This document shows, piece after piece, positions 7,713 to 11,976 of a stretch of DNA of 64,000 nucleotides (positions are counted from its first letter, which is position 1; the number at the start of each line of letters is the position of its first letter). The notes under the pieces were generated by a model that saw only the letters and a program-made list of their open reading frames with translations, was not told where the DNA came from and ran no database searches. The stretch comes from Adhaeribacter swui (GTDB lineage: Bacteria; Bacteroidota; Bacteroidia; Cytophagales; Hymenobacteraceae). Where the stretch lies: contig NZ_CP055156.1 in the NCBI RefSeq assembly GCF_014217805.1, positions 3,602,585-3,666,584 of the forward strand, read 5' to 3'. The position numbers and the translations under genes are program-made.

Positions 7713-10700
7713 TTAATTATTTTTAAATTCTACTTTTTTCTTAAATTCTGATTCCCATAATTTTTTATGATCATTAAAAAATTGTTCTAAACCTTCAATA
7801 GGATAATACTCAAAATTGCATATATAAGTAAACTTATCAGGATCAAGAATATTTTTAAATTTAAATTCTAAATGTTGATAATAATATTTTGCACTTAGCT
7901 CTAAACCAATTCTGTAGTGATACTCAAATAATGGGTCATTAATTTTTGTTAGGTATTCACAGAAAAAGTATAAAGCTTCTAAATAATAATATTTTATGTG
8001 ATAAAGATTTTTTAGTGCTTTTTCAAAATGTTGAATCTTTATAATGTGATCTTCAGAAATAAAAGCATACATCAATTCTTTTAATCCTTTTGTATAAGGA
8101 TTTGTTATAACAAGCTTTTTAATATCTTCCTTTTCAAGGAATTTTACTTTAGAAAGAATGTAAGTGCACTGCATTCTTTCTAGGTGTTGTTCAGGAAATA
8201 AAAGATTAATATAATTTTCTAATTCGCTCAAATTCAAGGTTTTTAAAATAAATTCAATTTCAAAATTATAAAAACCTTTTTTTGCCCTTATTGAAGGGGT
8301 AAAGACACCTAAATAATAAAAATGAGTATCTAATAAAAACTCTACTGCTCTATTAGTTACAAAGGACTGAATATAATTAATAGTATAACCTTCCATACTA
8401 TGGATGTATGATATGATATTTCTATATTCTCTTTGGCAATGATCCTCATTTTCAAAAATTCGTTTTTCGATTTCCTCTGGAGGAAAAATATTCCTTAATT
8501 CTTCATATGAACTATTAAAATCTTTAAAATAATATGTGAACCAAGTGCTTATTACATTTAAATAAATATCCGCATTAGGTATATCAGTAAATAGATTCTT
8601 AATATCATTAAGCTTTCTCCGAAATGCATTAATCTGGCTTTCATTCACGATATAGCTCATTATACCATCAATAAAATTTAATAAATGAATTTTATTTGAA
8701 ACTATTGACTTTTCAGAAATCTCAATGTGTGGTAGGTAGTCTAAAACAAGAAGTAAATTATTTTTAATAGAATCGTTTAAGAATAATGCAAATGATGTAG
8801 ACTTTCGAAAGTCAACAAAATCGATGTATTCCAATTGGAAAGTGTTAAAATCATAAGCATCAATATAGTACTTTGCCTTGATATCCTTAGTCCTTTTTAT
8901 AAAATGAAATTCTGCAAATCTTCTGATGATTGGTTGTAGTTGTAAAGTTCCATCATAATTCTCAACTAATGATTTGTCTTGTAGTTGCTTCAATTCTAAA
9001 TCACTTATATTATTAGATGAAGACTTTTGTTTGTTAAACCATTTTTTAAAATTAGTTAAACTTATACCATCTGGAAATAGGTGGAGTAATTCAAAAGCTA
9101 ATTTTTGTTTGGTAGTAAGTTTATGATAAGAATAATTGATTGATTGAAAGATGGAACGAGTTCTTTCTATATTTAAGTCAACATTCTTTTTAAATATAGA
9201 CTCAAATTCTTCACTTGTAGCTTCAAAGAAATGTTCTTTTAATTGATCCCTTAATTCAGAAATGTTTTTGTGTTGGGAATTGGTCTTAGTAACTAATTTA
9301 ATTGCCAATGGGTTATTATTAAGAAGATTTTCTAAAATATCACTTCTTAAAATCTTTTCTTCAGATTCTTTTACATTCCCTTGGTAATTATTTTTAAAAA
9401 GATTTAGGGCATCATCGGTAATTAACGTTCCTAAGGTAAAAATATCCTCAAAATCAACTAAAAGACTTTCTCTAGAAGTAATAACTATGTTTGCATAATC
9501 AGTTGCAAATTCCAATAAAGAAATTACTTTTCTATAATCTTCCTTATTACTCAGATTTGACACAGTTTCAAAATTGTCAAGAATTATTAAGAGGTTAATT
9601 TTTTTAGAGTTTTCAAATAAGTATTCTCTAAAATTTATAATATTTTTTAATTTGAAACCTTTAGTAAGTTCTTCTTCAAAATCGGCATAACTGTTAATGT
9701 TTTCACAAGAAATAAAACTAACTCCAAAGTCAAAATATCCCCTATTATATAATTCATAACCTATTTTTTTTATTAAAGTAGTTTTGCCTAAACCTCCAGA
9801 GCCTTTTATATTTAAAAGTTTATTTGATTCAATGATTTTTAAAATCCTATTTGCAATTATACTTTGCTCTTCAACTCTACCAATAATTGAAATAGATGCT
9901 TTTGGTAAAAATTCTAGGGGGCGTTTGATATCATACAAAGATAAAAATTTAGGTCTCCCTTTTTCAATTTTAAAAGGTAAGGAATCAATATTATAAATGT
10001 TAATTTCTTTTTCTTTAAAACATAAATCGTTATTTCTTAAAGCTTTAAATATTAGCTTATTAATATTTGAAGCTTTATATCCAAGTAAATGAATGATTGA
10101 AAAATCTTGATTAATGTTAATATCTTCATCAGTGACAATTACTCTAATTGTTTTTTCATTTGGAATATTTCTGTCTAACTCTTCAATAGTTATTAATTCA
10201 CTTTTTAAATCTTCTCCTTCTATATATATTTTATTTTTATAGGAACTTGTTATAATAAAAACCAATTCAAAGTCATCTAGTAATTGTAGACTTTTTAGAT
10301 TTAAATAACCTTTATAAATTTCAACTTCTAAATTATCAAAATAAGTAGCTGACTTTGAAAAATTTTGGTTTAATGGAAGATCAACTGGTTCAGGATATAA
10401 GAAGGCAATTTTTGGGGTTCTATTTACTGGATACTTAGTCGTTAAGCCTTCAAGTTGATGGATGTTTTTAAACCTTTCATTTTTTATTACCAACATCTTT
10501 TCTATAAAGGAATTTATTTCTTTATAATCAGAAATATGGATGGGTTTAATATAGGGAAGAGAATCGAAATTTTTAGGAGTTGTTGTGAGAAGATAATGTT
10601 TATTATAACCTTCAAAAATTTTATTTAGATTATTAAAAACTAAATTTACATAAGGGTCATTAAATCCAAATCCAATAAATAAAATTGTGTTATTTATAAA

Positions 10701-11267
10701 TAAATCTTTTAATTTTAAAATAGCAGCATTTTCACTAGAATAAAGATTCAAATAATCAGAATGAAATAATATACATTTTGATGCATCAGATTTGGCACAT
10801 CCATGAAGTTTAAAAATGAATTTTTTTTCATTTTTAATTTCATTTATATTAAATGGTGAATTGTATAAAACAGTTGAAATTGTATTATCTGTTTTCTCAA
10901 AAGCATTATCATAATTTGTAGTTATTATCTTACTTGTCAGAGCCAATATCTTTTTGTGCAATGAAAAATCGTTTTCGGATTTTAAAACAAAATTCTCTTT
11001 TAAGTATTTGTGTATAATATCTTTTTCATTTTTTAATTTTTCAAGTACCTCAATTGGGTCTAATAATTTTTGTTCAAGAATGGGAATAAAAAGCTTTAAC
11101 TTTTCATCATTTATTTCTTTTATAACATCAATAACTAAGTTATTCCAGTCAGGTAAATTAAATATTTTTGATAATCCAGACCCTACAAAAATTATTAATT
11201 TATCATTTTTTATTGCACTTGTAATATTAGCTTCAATGGTTATATTTTTAGGTTCTTGTATTTCCAT
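7713..11267 (-). CDS. SIR2 + NB-ARC-type STAND ATPase, Avs5-like candidate anti-phage protein
   Basis: Seen: 1184 residues. An N-terminal SIR2-like domain (about 10-265) has the NAD-site motifs GSGLS (29-33), TTNYD (116-120), LHG with the presumed catalytic H155, and GFGFNDP (199-205). A Rossmann-like middle segment covers about 285-440. A STAND ATPase follows with Walker A GSGGLGKTT (489-497), Walker B LLIILDN (559-565), TSRE sensor (597-600) and a GLPL-like NNNPLAIKL near 657. The C-terminal 420 or so residues are helix-rich and unrecognised. Known: SIR2-STAND proteins (Avs5/AVAST type V) sense phage proteins and deplete NAD, and stand-alone bacterial SIR2 domains act as NADases in Thoeris, DSR and related systems. 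Inferred: this is a one-gene abortive-infection system, larger than described Avs5. Composition is far more AT-rich than all neighbours, and the gene sits between galM and a broken hrpB, so it was probably acquired horizontally. ATG start at 11267; no partner gene. Confidence 0.88.
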   Translation of the reverse strand: MEIQEPKNITIEANITSAIKNDKLIIFVGSGLSKIFNLPDWNNLVIDVIKEINDEKLKLFIPILEQKLLDPIEVLEKLKNEKDIIHKYLKENFVLKSENDFSLHKKILALTSKIITTNYDNAFEKTDNTISTVLYNSPFNINEIKNEKKFIFKLHGCAKSDASKCILFHSDYLNLYSSENAAILKLKDLFINNTILFIGFGFNDPYVNLVFNNLNKIFEGYNKHYLLTTTPKNFDSLPYIKPIHISDYKEINSFIEKMLVIKNERFKNIHQLEGLTTKYPVNRTPKIAFLYPEPVDLPLNQNFSKSATYFDNLEVEIYKGYLNLKSLQLLDDFELVFIITSSYKNKIYIEGEDLKSELITIEELDRNIPNEKTIRVIVTDEDININQDFSIIHLLGYKASNINKLIFKALRNNDLCFKEKEINIYNIDSLPFKIEKGRPKFLSLYDIKRPLEFLPKASISIIGRVEEQSIIANRILKIIESNKLLNIKGSGGLGKTTLIKKIGYELYNRGYFDFGVSFISCENINSYADFEEELTKGFKLKNIINFREYLFENSKKINLLIILDNFETVSNLSNKEDYRKVISLLEFATDYANIVITSRESLLVDFEDIFTLGTLITDDALNLFKNNYQGNVKESEEKILRSDILENLLNNNPLAIKLVTKTNSQHKNISELRDQLKEHFFEATSEEFESIFKKNVDLNIERTRSIFQSINYSYHKLTTKQKLAFELLHLFPDGISLTNFKKWFNKQKSSSNNISDLELKQLQDKSLVENYDGTLQLQPIIRRFAEFHFIKRTKDIKAKYYIDAYDFNTFQLEYIDFVDFRKSTSFALFLNDSIKNNLLLVLDYLPHIEISEKSIVSNKIHLLNFIDGIMSYIVNESQINAFRRKLNDIKNLFTDIPNADIYLNVISTWFTYYFKDFNSSYEELRNIFPPEEIEKRIFENEDHCQREYRNIISYIHSMEGYTINYIQSFVTNRAVEFLLDTHFYYLGVFTPSIRAKKGFYNFEIEFILKTLNLSELENYINLLFPEQHLERMQCTYILSKVKFLEKEDIKKLVITNPYTKGLKELMYAFISEDHIIKIQHFEKALKNLYHIKYYYLEALYFFCEYLTKINDPLFEYHYRIGLELSAKYYYQHLEFKFKNILDPDKFTYICNFEYYPIEGLEQFFNDHKKLWESEFKKKVEFKNN

Positions 11268-11296: not shown

Positions 11297-11538
11297 TAAT
11301 TAGTAATTTAAATTTTGGCTGTGGTTTAAAATGTATGATGGTGCTAAAACATTGATTTATAAAAAGTTTTGATCAACATTCTATTTAAAAGATTTTCATA
11401 ATCACAATAATTTAAGACACTTTAATGCTCATTTAAGCATACTTTATTAGAAAGCAGTCCTGCAAGAATTTAATGCTGCTTTTAAAGTATTTATCCATCA
11501 TACATTTTAAACCACAACCTAAATTTAATTACCTATTA
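11297..11538. repeat. Long imperfect inverted repeat (MITE-like) upstream of the SIR2-STAND gene
   Basis: The left arm (11297-11341) and right arm (11495-11538) are near-perfect reverse complements over about 44 bases. The innermost 21 bases (11321-11341 and 11495-11515) match exactly, and the outer part has about five mismatches and one gap. The 153 bases between have no ORF. The element starts 30 bases upstream of the SIR2-STAND start codon, so it probably overlaps that gene's promoter. It could be a small non-autonomous mobile element, an island end, or a regulatory hairpin. No target-site duplication is visible. Confidence 0.6.
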
Positions 11539-11631: not shown

Positions 11632-11976
11632 TTGTACTCTTTCAATCCCTTCACCATAGACTTACCCGTTCGCGAAATAATCCCGGACTTACAAACCCAA
11701 CTCGCTGCCCAGAACACACTAATCGTACAAGCCCCACCGGGCGCCGGTAAAAGTACCTTGTTGCCTCTGGCTTTGTTAGACGAGCCTTGGCTAGCCAATC
11801 AGAAAATAATTATGCTGGAGCCCCGGCGCTTAGCCGCCCGCACCATTGCCGAACGCTTGGCTTTTTTGCTGGGCGAAGAAGTGGGGCAATTTGTTGTCTA
11901 TTACCCATGCTTCGAAAATGGCACTCTCGATAAACCCAGCCTGAGAATAACAACTACCGGTATTTTGCTGCAGTAA
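11632..11976 (+). pseudogene. Remnant of ATP-dependent helicase HrpB (N-terminal fragment)
   Basis: The 114-residue frame matches the first part of the DEAH-box helicase HrpB: FTIDLPVREIIPDLQ, Walker A motif PPGAGKST, then MLEPRRLAARTIAERLAFLLGEEVGQ (motif Ia region). After GQ the match degrades (YYPCFENG, where the family has YRIRFEN) and stops at GILLQ. Full-length HrpB is about 820 residues, so roughly 700 residues, including the DEAH motif, are missing. The frame opens only with a TTG; the usual ATG is absent. Both ends are damaged. It directly abuts the inverted repeat beside the SIR2-STAND gene, which suggests the island arrived in or replaced most of hrpB. Confidence 0.8.

Follow-up and report, generated by a model that had tools for sequence, protein, structure and literature searches.

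What does a single bacterial gene do that joins a SIR2 domain to a STAND ATPase, and does it belong to a known class of antiviral receptor? The question is raised by a 64,000-nucleotide stretch of the Adhaeribacter swui genome (assembly GCF_014217805.1, contig NZ_CP055156.1, positions 3,602,585 to 3,666,584; hereafter the window), which carries on its minus strand an open reading frame (ORF) at 7713..11267 that starts with ATG and encodes a protein of 1184 residues, present as one copy only in the 6.2 Mb genome. An original prediction had compared this protein with Avs5 (AVAST type V) and taken it for a horizontally acquired, one-gene abortive-infection system. We conclude that it is most likely a one-gene STAND receptor whose effector is SIR2 and which acts against phages by NAD+ depletion. 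The architecture and the patchy distribution bear out the original prediction, whereas the match to Avs5 models and the use of AT-richness as a sign of transfer do not hold; a family spanning four phyla is added to it, and the anti-phage and NAD-depletion steps would be carried over from relatives.

Domain order and conserved residues

From the N-terminus the chain consists of a SIR2 domain, a middle domain, an NB-ARC-type STAND ATPase and a helical, presumed sensor region, as delimited from the ORF, Pfam and an AlphaFold2 model of the whole chain (mean predicted local distance difference test score (pLDDT) 82.5, predicted template modelling score (pTM) 0.63). That SIR2 and a STAND ATPase share one gene is upheld by Pfam, in which SIR2_2 (PF13289; residues 113-232, E=5e-23) and NB-ARC (residues 473-689, E=2e-7, 31.1 bits against a cut-off of 23.5) both exceed their cut-offs, whereas nSTAND3 (PF20720) scores 22.6 bits against a cut-off of 27.2. 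The middle segment and the C-terminal third have no Pfam match at E<=0.1, and NCBIfam returned no match to the protein at E<=0.01. In a PADLOC scan the protein was reached via the SIR2 parts of the LmuA, ThsA and Dsr1 models, with a weak match of the mad8 model to its ATPase (E=0.009). All motifs named beforehand occur in the translation: GSGLS (residues 29-33), TTNYD (116-120), LHG (154-156) and GFGFNDP (199-205) for SIR2, and GSGGLGKTT (489-497), LLIILDN (559-565), TSRE (597-600) and NPLAIKL (652-658) for the ATPase.

Conservation was counted in a 26-row alignment of the family (A2), 25 rows of which bear SIR2; a copy split in two pieces (L035), one that begins within the gene (L050) and one with an HD-CE N-terminus (L052, used in the tree and pairwise comparisons only) were left out. 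The NADase-type effector domain (about residues 13-250; 10518..11231, on the minus strand like every feature of this protein) preserves N118 and D120 of the TTNYD motif (10908..10922) and H155 (10803..10805), the catalytic histidine by analogy, in 25/25 SIR2-bearing rows. Its sequence kinship to the NADases KomC and ThsA, both of solved structure, supports a NAD+-consuming effector, and a family profile search of solved structures adds DSR2, which points the same way, and FAM118B as SIR2 relatives. Related SIR2 domains at six other loci (L054, L055, L056, L057, L060 and L062) are fused to tetratricopeptide repeat (TPR) arrays, where Pfam shows no ATPase, and constitute another SIR2-sensor layout.

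The STAND module (about residues 460-790; 8898..9890) comprises, by Pfam and the secondary structure of the model, the NB-ARC match followed by helical and putative winged-helix parts, the latter on our own reading of the predicted structure. Its Walker A (GSGGLGKTT; 9777..9803) and Walker B (LLIILDN; 9573..9593) motifs are intact across the family, with K495, T496, D564, N565, T597 and R599 invariant in 26/26 rows; together with the NB-ARC score, the Walker residues K495 and D564 identify an NB-ARC-type STAND ATPase, as the proposed receptor requires. The C-terminal region (about residues 794-1184; 7713..8888) is all-helical in the AlphaFold2 model, where the helices extend over residues 779-1184, and matches no Pfam repeat family. 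By windowed conservation in A2, residues 800-1020 are variable and residues 1021-1140 better conserved, a pattern that would fit a variable sensing surface followed by a fixed end piece.

By analogy with the characterised relatives Avs5, DSR2 and ThsA, the helical C-terminus would detect something made during infection, after which the NB-ARC ATPase would swap its nucleotide and oligomerise. Oligomerisation would gather the N-terminal SIR2 domains, and these may then hydrolyse NAD+, halting the infected cell before the phage could spread; the middle domain, which lies between effector and ATPase, may pass the signal of the core to the fused effector. A structural search with the whole model lends support to this comparison, with the AVAST5 filament as the best match and DSR2, a STAND-TPR protein and ThsA next.

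Effector exchange and the middle domain

Two relatives carry another N-terminus in place of SIR2: a calcineurin-like phosphoesterase (metallophosphoesterase, E=5e-12) in L045 from Paenibacillus, and an HD-CE domain (E=2e-26) in L052 from a Bacteroidota metagenome-assembled genome (MAG). Over the shared core, which begins at the end of SIR2 or where the middle domain starts, identity is 62% both between L045 and the SIR2-bearing L046 (925 residues) and between L052 and the SIR2-bearing L031 (898 residues); N-terminal to this core, only chance-level segments appear among those listed for either pair. A tree of the core alone places L045 as sister to L046 (98/99) and L052 as sister to L031 (100/100). 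Because cores of 62% identity carry differing N-termini and are placed as sisters, we conclude that the N-terminus has been replaced at least twice and that the middle domain is part of the core; the sequences suggest that effectors are interchangeable on a common sensor core. We note that L052 and L031 are binned contigs, for which chimeric assembly is possible; L045 carries no mention of a bin in its title. If correct, this would amount to a natural experiment in which the same sensor core works with three effectors, the trigger and the output being separable and exchangeable.

The extra middle segment noticed in the original prediction is indeed present (about residues 285-425; 9993..10415). 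Modelled in isolation with AlphaFold2 (pLDDT 87.4, pTM 0.82), it is predicted to adopt an alpha/beta fold like that of caspase/CHAT domains, lacking their His-Cys pair. Foldseek with this model returned SAVED-CHAT as the top match (E=1.9e-5, TMq 0.60), and six of the eight matches at E<=0.001 were chains of SAVED-CHAT or caspase entries, flavodoxin-like folds making up much of the lower-ranked matches. Five hhalign runs against CHAT families gave E-values of 0.16-0.58, and a larger run against 46 CHAT rows gave E 0.095, no better than controls (score 16.6, with 1/40 column shuffles scoring higher and a SIR2 control reaching 18.1). Since there are structural matches, no His-Cys pair and no profile or Pfam support, we call the domain caspase/CHAT-like by predicted fold, with kinship unproven, and judge it to be probably dead as a protease.

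Were the middle domain instead a second enzyme, either a CHAT-type protease or a TIR-like NADase, the protein would possess two effectors, and both the predicted fold and the invariance of E350 and P294 (26/26 rows) would suit such a role. We consider this very improbable, as a His past the third strand occurs in 2/26 rows and a Cys past the fourth strand in 3/26, the catalytic His and Cys of CHAT and caspase enzymes are jointly present in 0/26, a Pfam search of the domain gave no meaningful match, and TIR is absent among the 50 Foldseek matches listed. Most likely, to judge from the models, the domain is a non-catalytic adaptor that relays the signal of the core to any effector joined to it. 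Tentatively, the family could then be a STAND receptor type of its own apart from Avs1-5, in which a fixed pseudo-caspase (dead CHAT) adaptor, NB-ARC and sensor are fitted with SIR2, a metallophosphoesterase or HD-CE, such that in bacteria a degenerate caspase fold would link an ATPase of the apoptosome type to effectors of other kinds. A dead caspase-like adaptor on an ATPase of this type would bear on how caspase and NB-ARC modules came to be joined in cell-death pathways.

Family distribution and genomic surroundings

A genome scan with the single 1184-residue protein as query found no relatives and was superseded by a scan based on a six-sequence alignment (A1, which includes relatives from genome searches and the plasmid copy L023); this returned 41 loci from the species-genome collection. 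Four phyla are represented by the 28 loci (L025-L052) that match beyond the SIR2 part: 12 are from Bacteroidota, 12 from Bacillota (10 of these Paenibacillus), one is a Campylobacterota bin and three are Pseudoalteromonas contigs. They include the split L035, L050, whose start inside the gene coincides with a contig end, and L045 and L052 without SIR2. Eleven of the remaining 13 loci match in the SIR2 part, L064 matches in the ATPase, and L065 matches weakly from SIR2 into the ATPase. What is new here is a cross-phylum family that PADLOC models reach only through SIR2, its natural exchange of effectors, and the caspase-like middle domain kept with the core; our reading of its function, if true, would add a widespread one-gene NAD-depleting receptor. 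Literature searches found no description of this SIR2-STAND family, most subscription papers lying outside their reach.

The distribution is patchy, as is compatible with a defence gene. None of the seven other genomes of the genus matches beyond SIR2, and in the family of the host 4/204 genomes do so, its own counted and one of the four in two frames; both counts come from scoring a few top candidates in each genome. At E<=1e-20, matches occur in 5/291 genomes of the order sample, of which the four besides our own match in the SIR2 part only, and in 3/395 genomes of the phylum sample, again with our own counted; G403 of that sample and L026 are apparently one gene and hence not independent. 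The core is found in three of 72,556 plasmid records, one of them holding it in pieces, and one plasmid-borne core adjoins integrase and recombinase genes, which also speaks for a defence gene. Copies in pieces occur in three organisms (L004 1474-5042, L024 8001-11072 and L035 5929-9494), and the same reading is favoured by them; it is as though retaining the gene carried a cost. The core tree, which also takes in L023, L002, L003 and L017, gives no sign of recent transfer between phyla, with Bacillota and Bacteroidota each on one side of a branch at modest support (59/80, 90/89). Within it, L026 (Flavobacterium) and L030 (a Spirosoma-labelled MAG) pair at 100/100 despite belonging to different families, and this fits a transfer inside the phylum, L030 being a binned contig.

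The patchy distribution and the plasmid-borne copies agree with the original prediction; base composition by itself is no evidence of recent transfer. The AT-rich island exists, the gene having a G+C content of 24% and the remainder of the window 45%; however, in all 28 measured copies (26 of the 28 genome loci, without L035 and L050, and two plasmid copies) G+C falls below that of the flanking DNA, which ranges from 25 to 55%, the mean difference being 13 points. Because this holds for 28/28 copies, low G+C is a family trait, and recent transfer argued from AT-richness alone was rejected, since the copies are low whatever their flanks. The proposal of a one-gene system fares better: no recurrent partner gene lies within about 6 kb of 28 relatives (271 ORFs of at least 70 residues), and the most recurrent neighbour cluster occurs at 6/28 loci in scattered positions. 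At two of the 28 loci (L033 5998-9402 and L028 5983-9498), same-strand genes lie within 60 bases on both sides in an operon-like arrangement.

Several observations weigh against an anti-phage receptor as we propose it. Among 200 of 223 ORFs near relatives (23 were dropped, mostly at locus ends, and ORFs below 100 or above 1500 residues were left out), PADLOC matches numbered 59 for 99 proteins and 17 for 101, compared with 9 for a control of 100 proteins taken from 169 ORFs of two genomes carrying relatives; these counts are of families, not proteins, and are not clearly above the control. Of the 25 families listed out of the 59, 20 are single-member GajB models that presumably reflect one protein; matches to mad3, mad8 and AriA occur in both the neighbour and control sets. 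Ten chosen neighbours gave 0/10 PADLOC matches at E<=1e-5, a relative was found in 0/50,697 phage records, and a pattern-based scan of viral contigs gave one match, to SIR2 only. The whole model superposes poorly on AVAST5 (TM-score 0.18-0.28), these scores reflecting shared parts rather than one pose. Finally, the adaptor role rests on a predicted fold and on co-occurrence with the core, the CHAT kinship having failed the profile test.

Defence against mobile DNA such as plasmids, or a cell-death switch set off by stress, would accommodate the near-control counts of defence families around the relatives and the three plasmid-borne copies. We regard a function of this sort as improbable, given that the nearest comparators among characterised proteins (Avs5, DSR2 and ThsA) are directed against phages (for Avs5, according to the available text of PMC12931631). 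In the window itself, the 34 other ORFs match eight PADLOC families at E<=1e-5 with one member each; three of these (mad3, mad8 and AriA) again match in the control.

The immediate neighbours were described in the original prediction as a metabolic gene and a helicase remnant, the latter having no apparent link to our gene. On the left lies a galactose mutarotase, and on the right a 114-residue helicase start (11632-11976) is followed by a gene without a Pfam match. The fragment is the N-terminal end of a helicase that we take to be of the HrpB type. Over 112 residues it has 75% identity with an intact 814-residue protein from a genome of the same genus, and an intact helicase elsewhere in the A. 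swui genome is 88% identical to that protein; the remnant is thus a truncated extra helicase end. In the same-genus genome G005, an intact helicase lies about 5 kb beyond the mutarotase (89% identical in DNA), its start matching the remnant at 85%, and the right flank of the window is found elsewhere in G003, G004 and G005. We conclude from this order in G005, the displaced right flank and the intact helicase elsewhere that the gene sits at a rearranged junction. The local order has changed more than once, since in G005 the window's Dabb gene has a short match on the opposite side of the mutarotase. The start codon of our gene is preceded, at a distance of about 40 bases, by a 217-base element (11310-11526) with inverted ends of about 30 bases; this element has an 82% identical copy in G006 of the same genus and is probably a miniature transposon.

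Comparison with known systems

Avs5 proteins combine SIR2, nSTAND3 and C-terminal repeats, and a phage protein triggers their NAD+ hydrolysis (PMC12931631, available text). The protein described here shares with them a single gene, an N-terminal SIR2 domain of the PF13289 family (E=5e-23), a STAND ATPase and a helical C-terminal region. A divergent Avs5 with a linker grown into a domain, and hence nothing separate from Avs5, would explain this common order as well as the AVAST5 filament as best structural match. It would also suit the nSTAND3 scores, which come near the cut-off and in one of six relatives scanned with Pfam pass it (L047, 32.9 bits), and the mutual identity of only 18-21% among the three Avs5 proteins tested in PMC12931631. 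We nevertheless consider it unlikely. The profile comparison proposed with the original prediction turned out negative, as no Avs5 model matches the protein in PADLOC to E 0.1 and the 771-position model PDLC02170 has 0 matches in its own genome at E<=0.001; a family profile search of solved-structure sequences likewise returned no AVAST5 chain at E<=0.1, the presence of the AVAST5 entry in that set not having been checked. The NB-ARC cut-off, moreover, is passed by our protein and by 5/6 relatives, Walker B is LLIILDN as opposed to IIFIE in PaAvs5-1 (PMC12931631, available text), and the extra domain of about 140 residues keeps to a core that also bears non-SIR2 effectors. The expected excess in size is confirmed, with 1184 residues against the 771 positions of the PADLOC model and a residue numbering that reaches 828 for PaAvs5-1 in the same text. 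The protein thus appears Avs5-like in the parts readable from sequence and falls outside the Avs5 profile.

DSR2 and DSR1 similarly combine SIR2, which is similar by profile, with a long C-terminal part; sequence likeness is limited to SIR2, however, and here an NB-ARC ATPase follows it. By sequence, the SIR2 domains of solved structure nearest to the one described here are those of ThsA (Thoeris) and KomC (Kongming), which respond to nucleotide signals made by partner proteins, whereas here effector and receptor are in one chain. A Pantoea plasmid protein (WP_207806739.1, 963 residues) aligns to the family profile across SIR2 and NB-ARC (hhalign E=1e-35), but with a gap across most of the middle domain, its NB-ARC match beginning about 85 residues past the SIR2 match. 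Exchange of N-terminal effectors has precedent in bacterial conflict proteins, for which the available text of PMC8195603 gives SIR2 as one of 13 exchangeable N-terminal effectors of one system and places calcineurin-like domains among the effectors of a STAND-FGS and a TRADD-N system. The constant cores given there (TPR with GreA/B-C and PIN, STAND-FGS and TRADD-N) differ from the core of the family described here.

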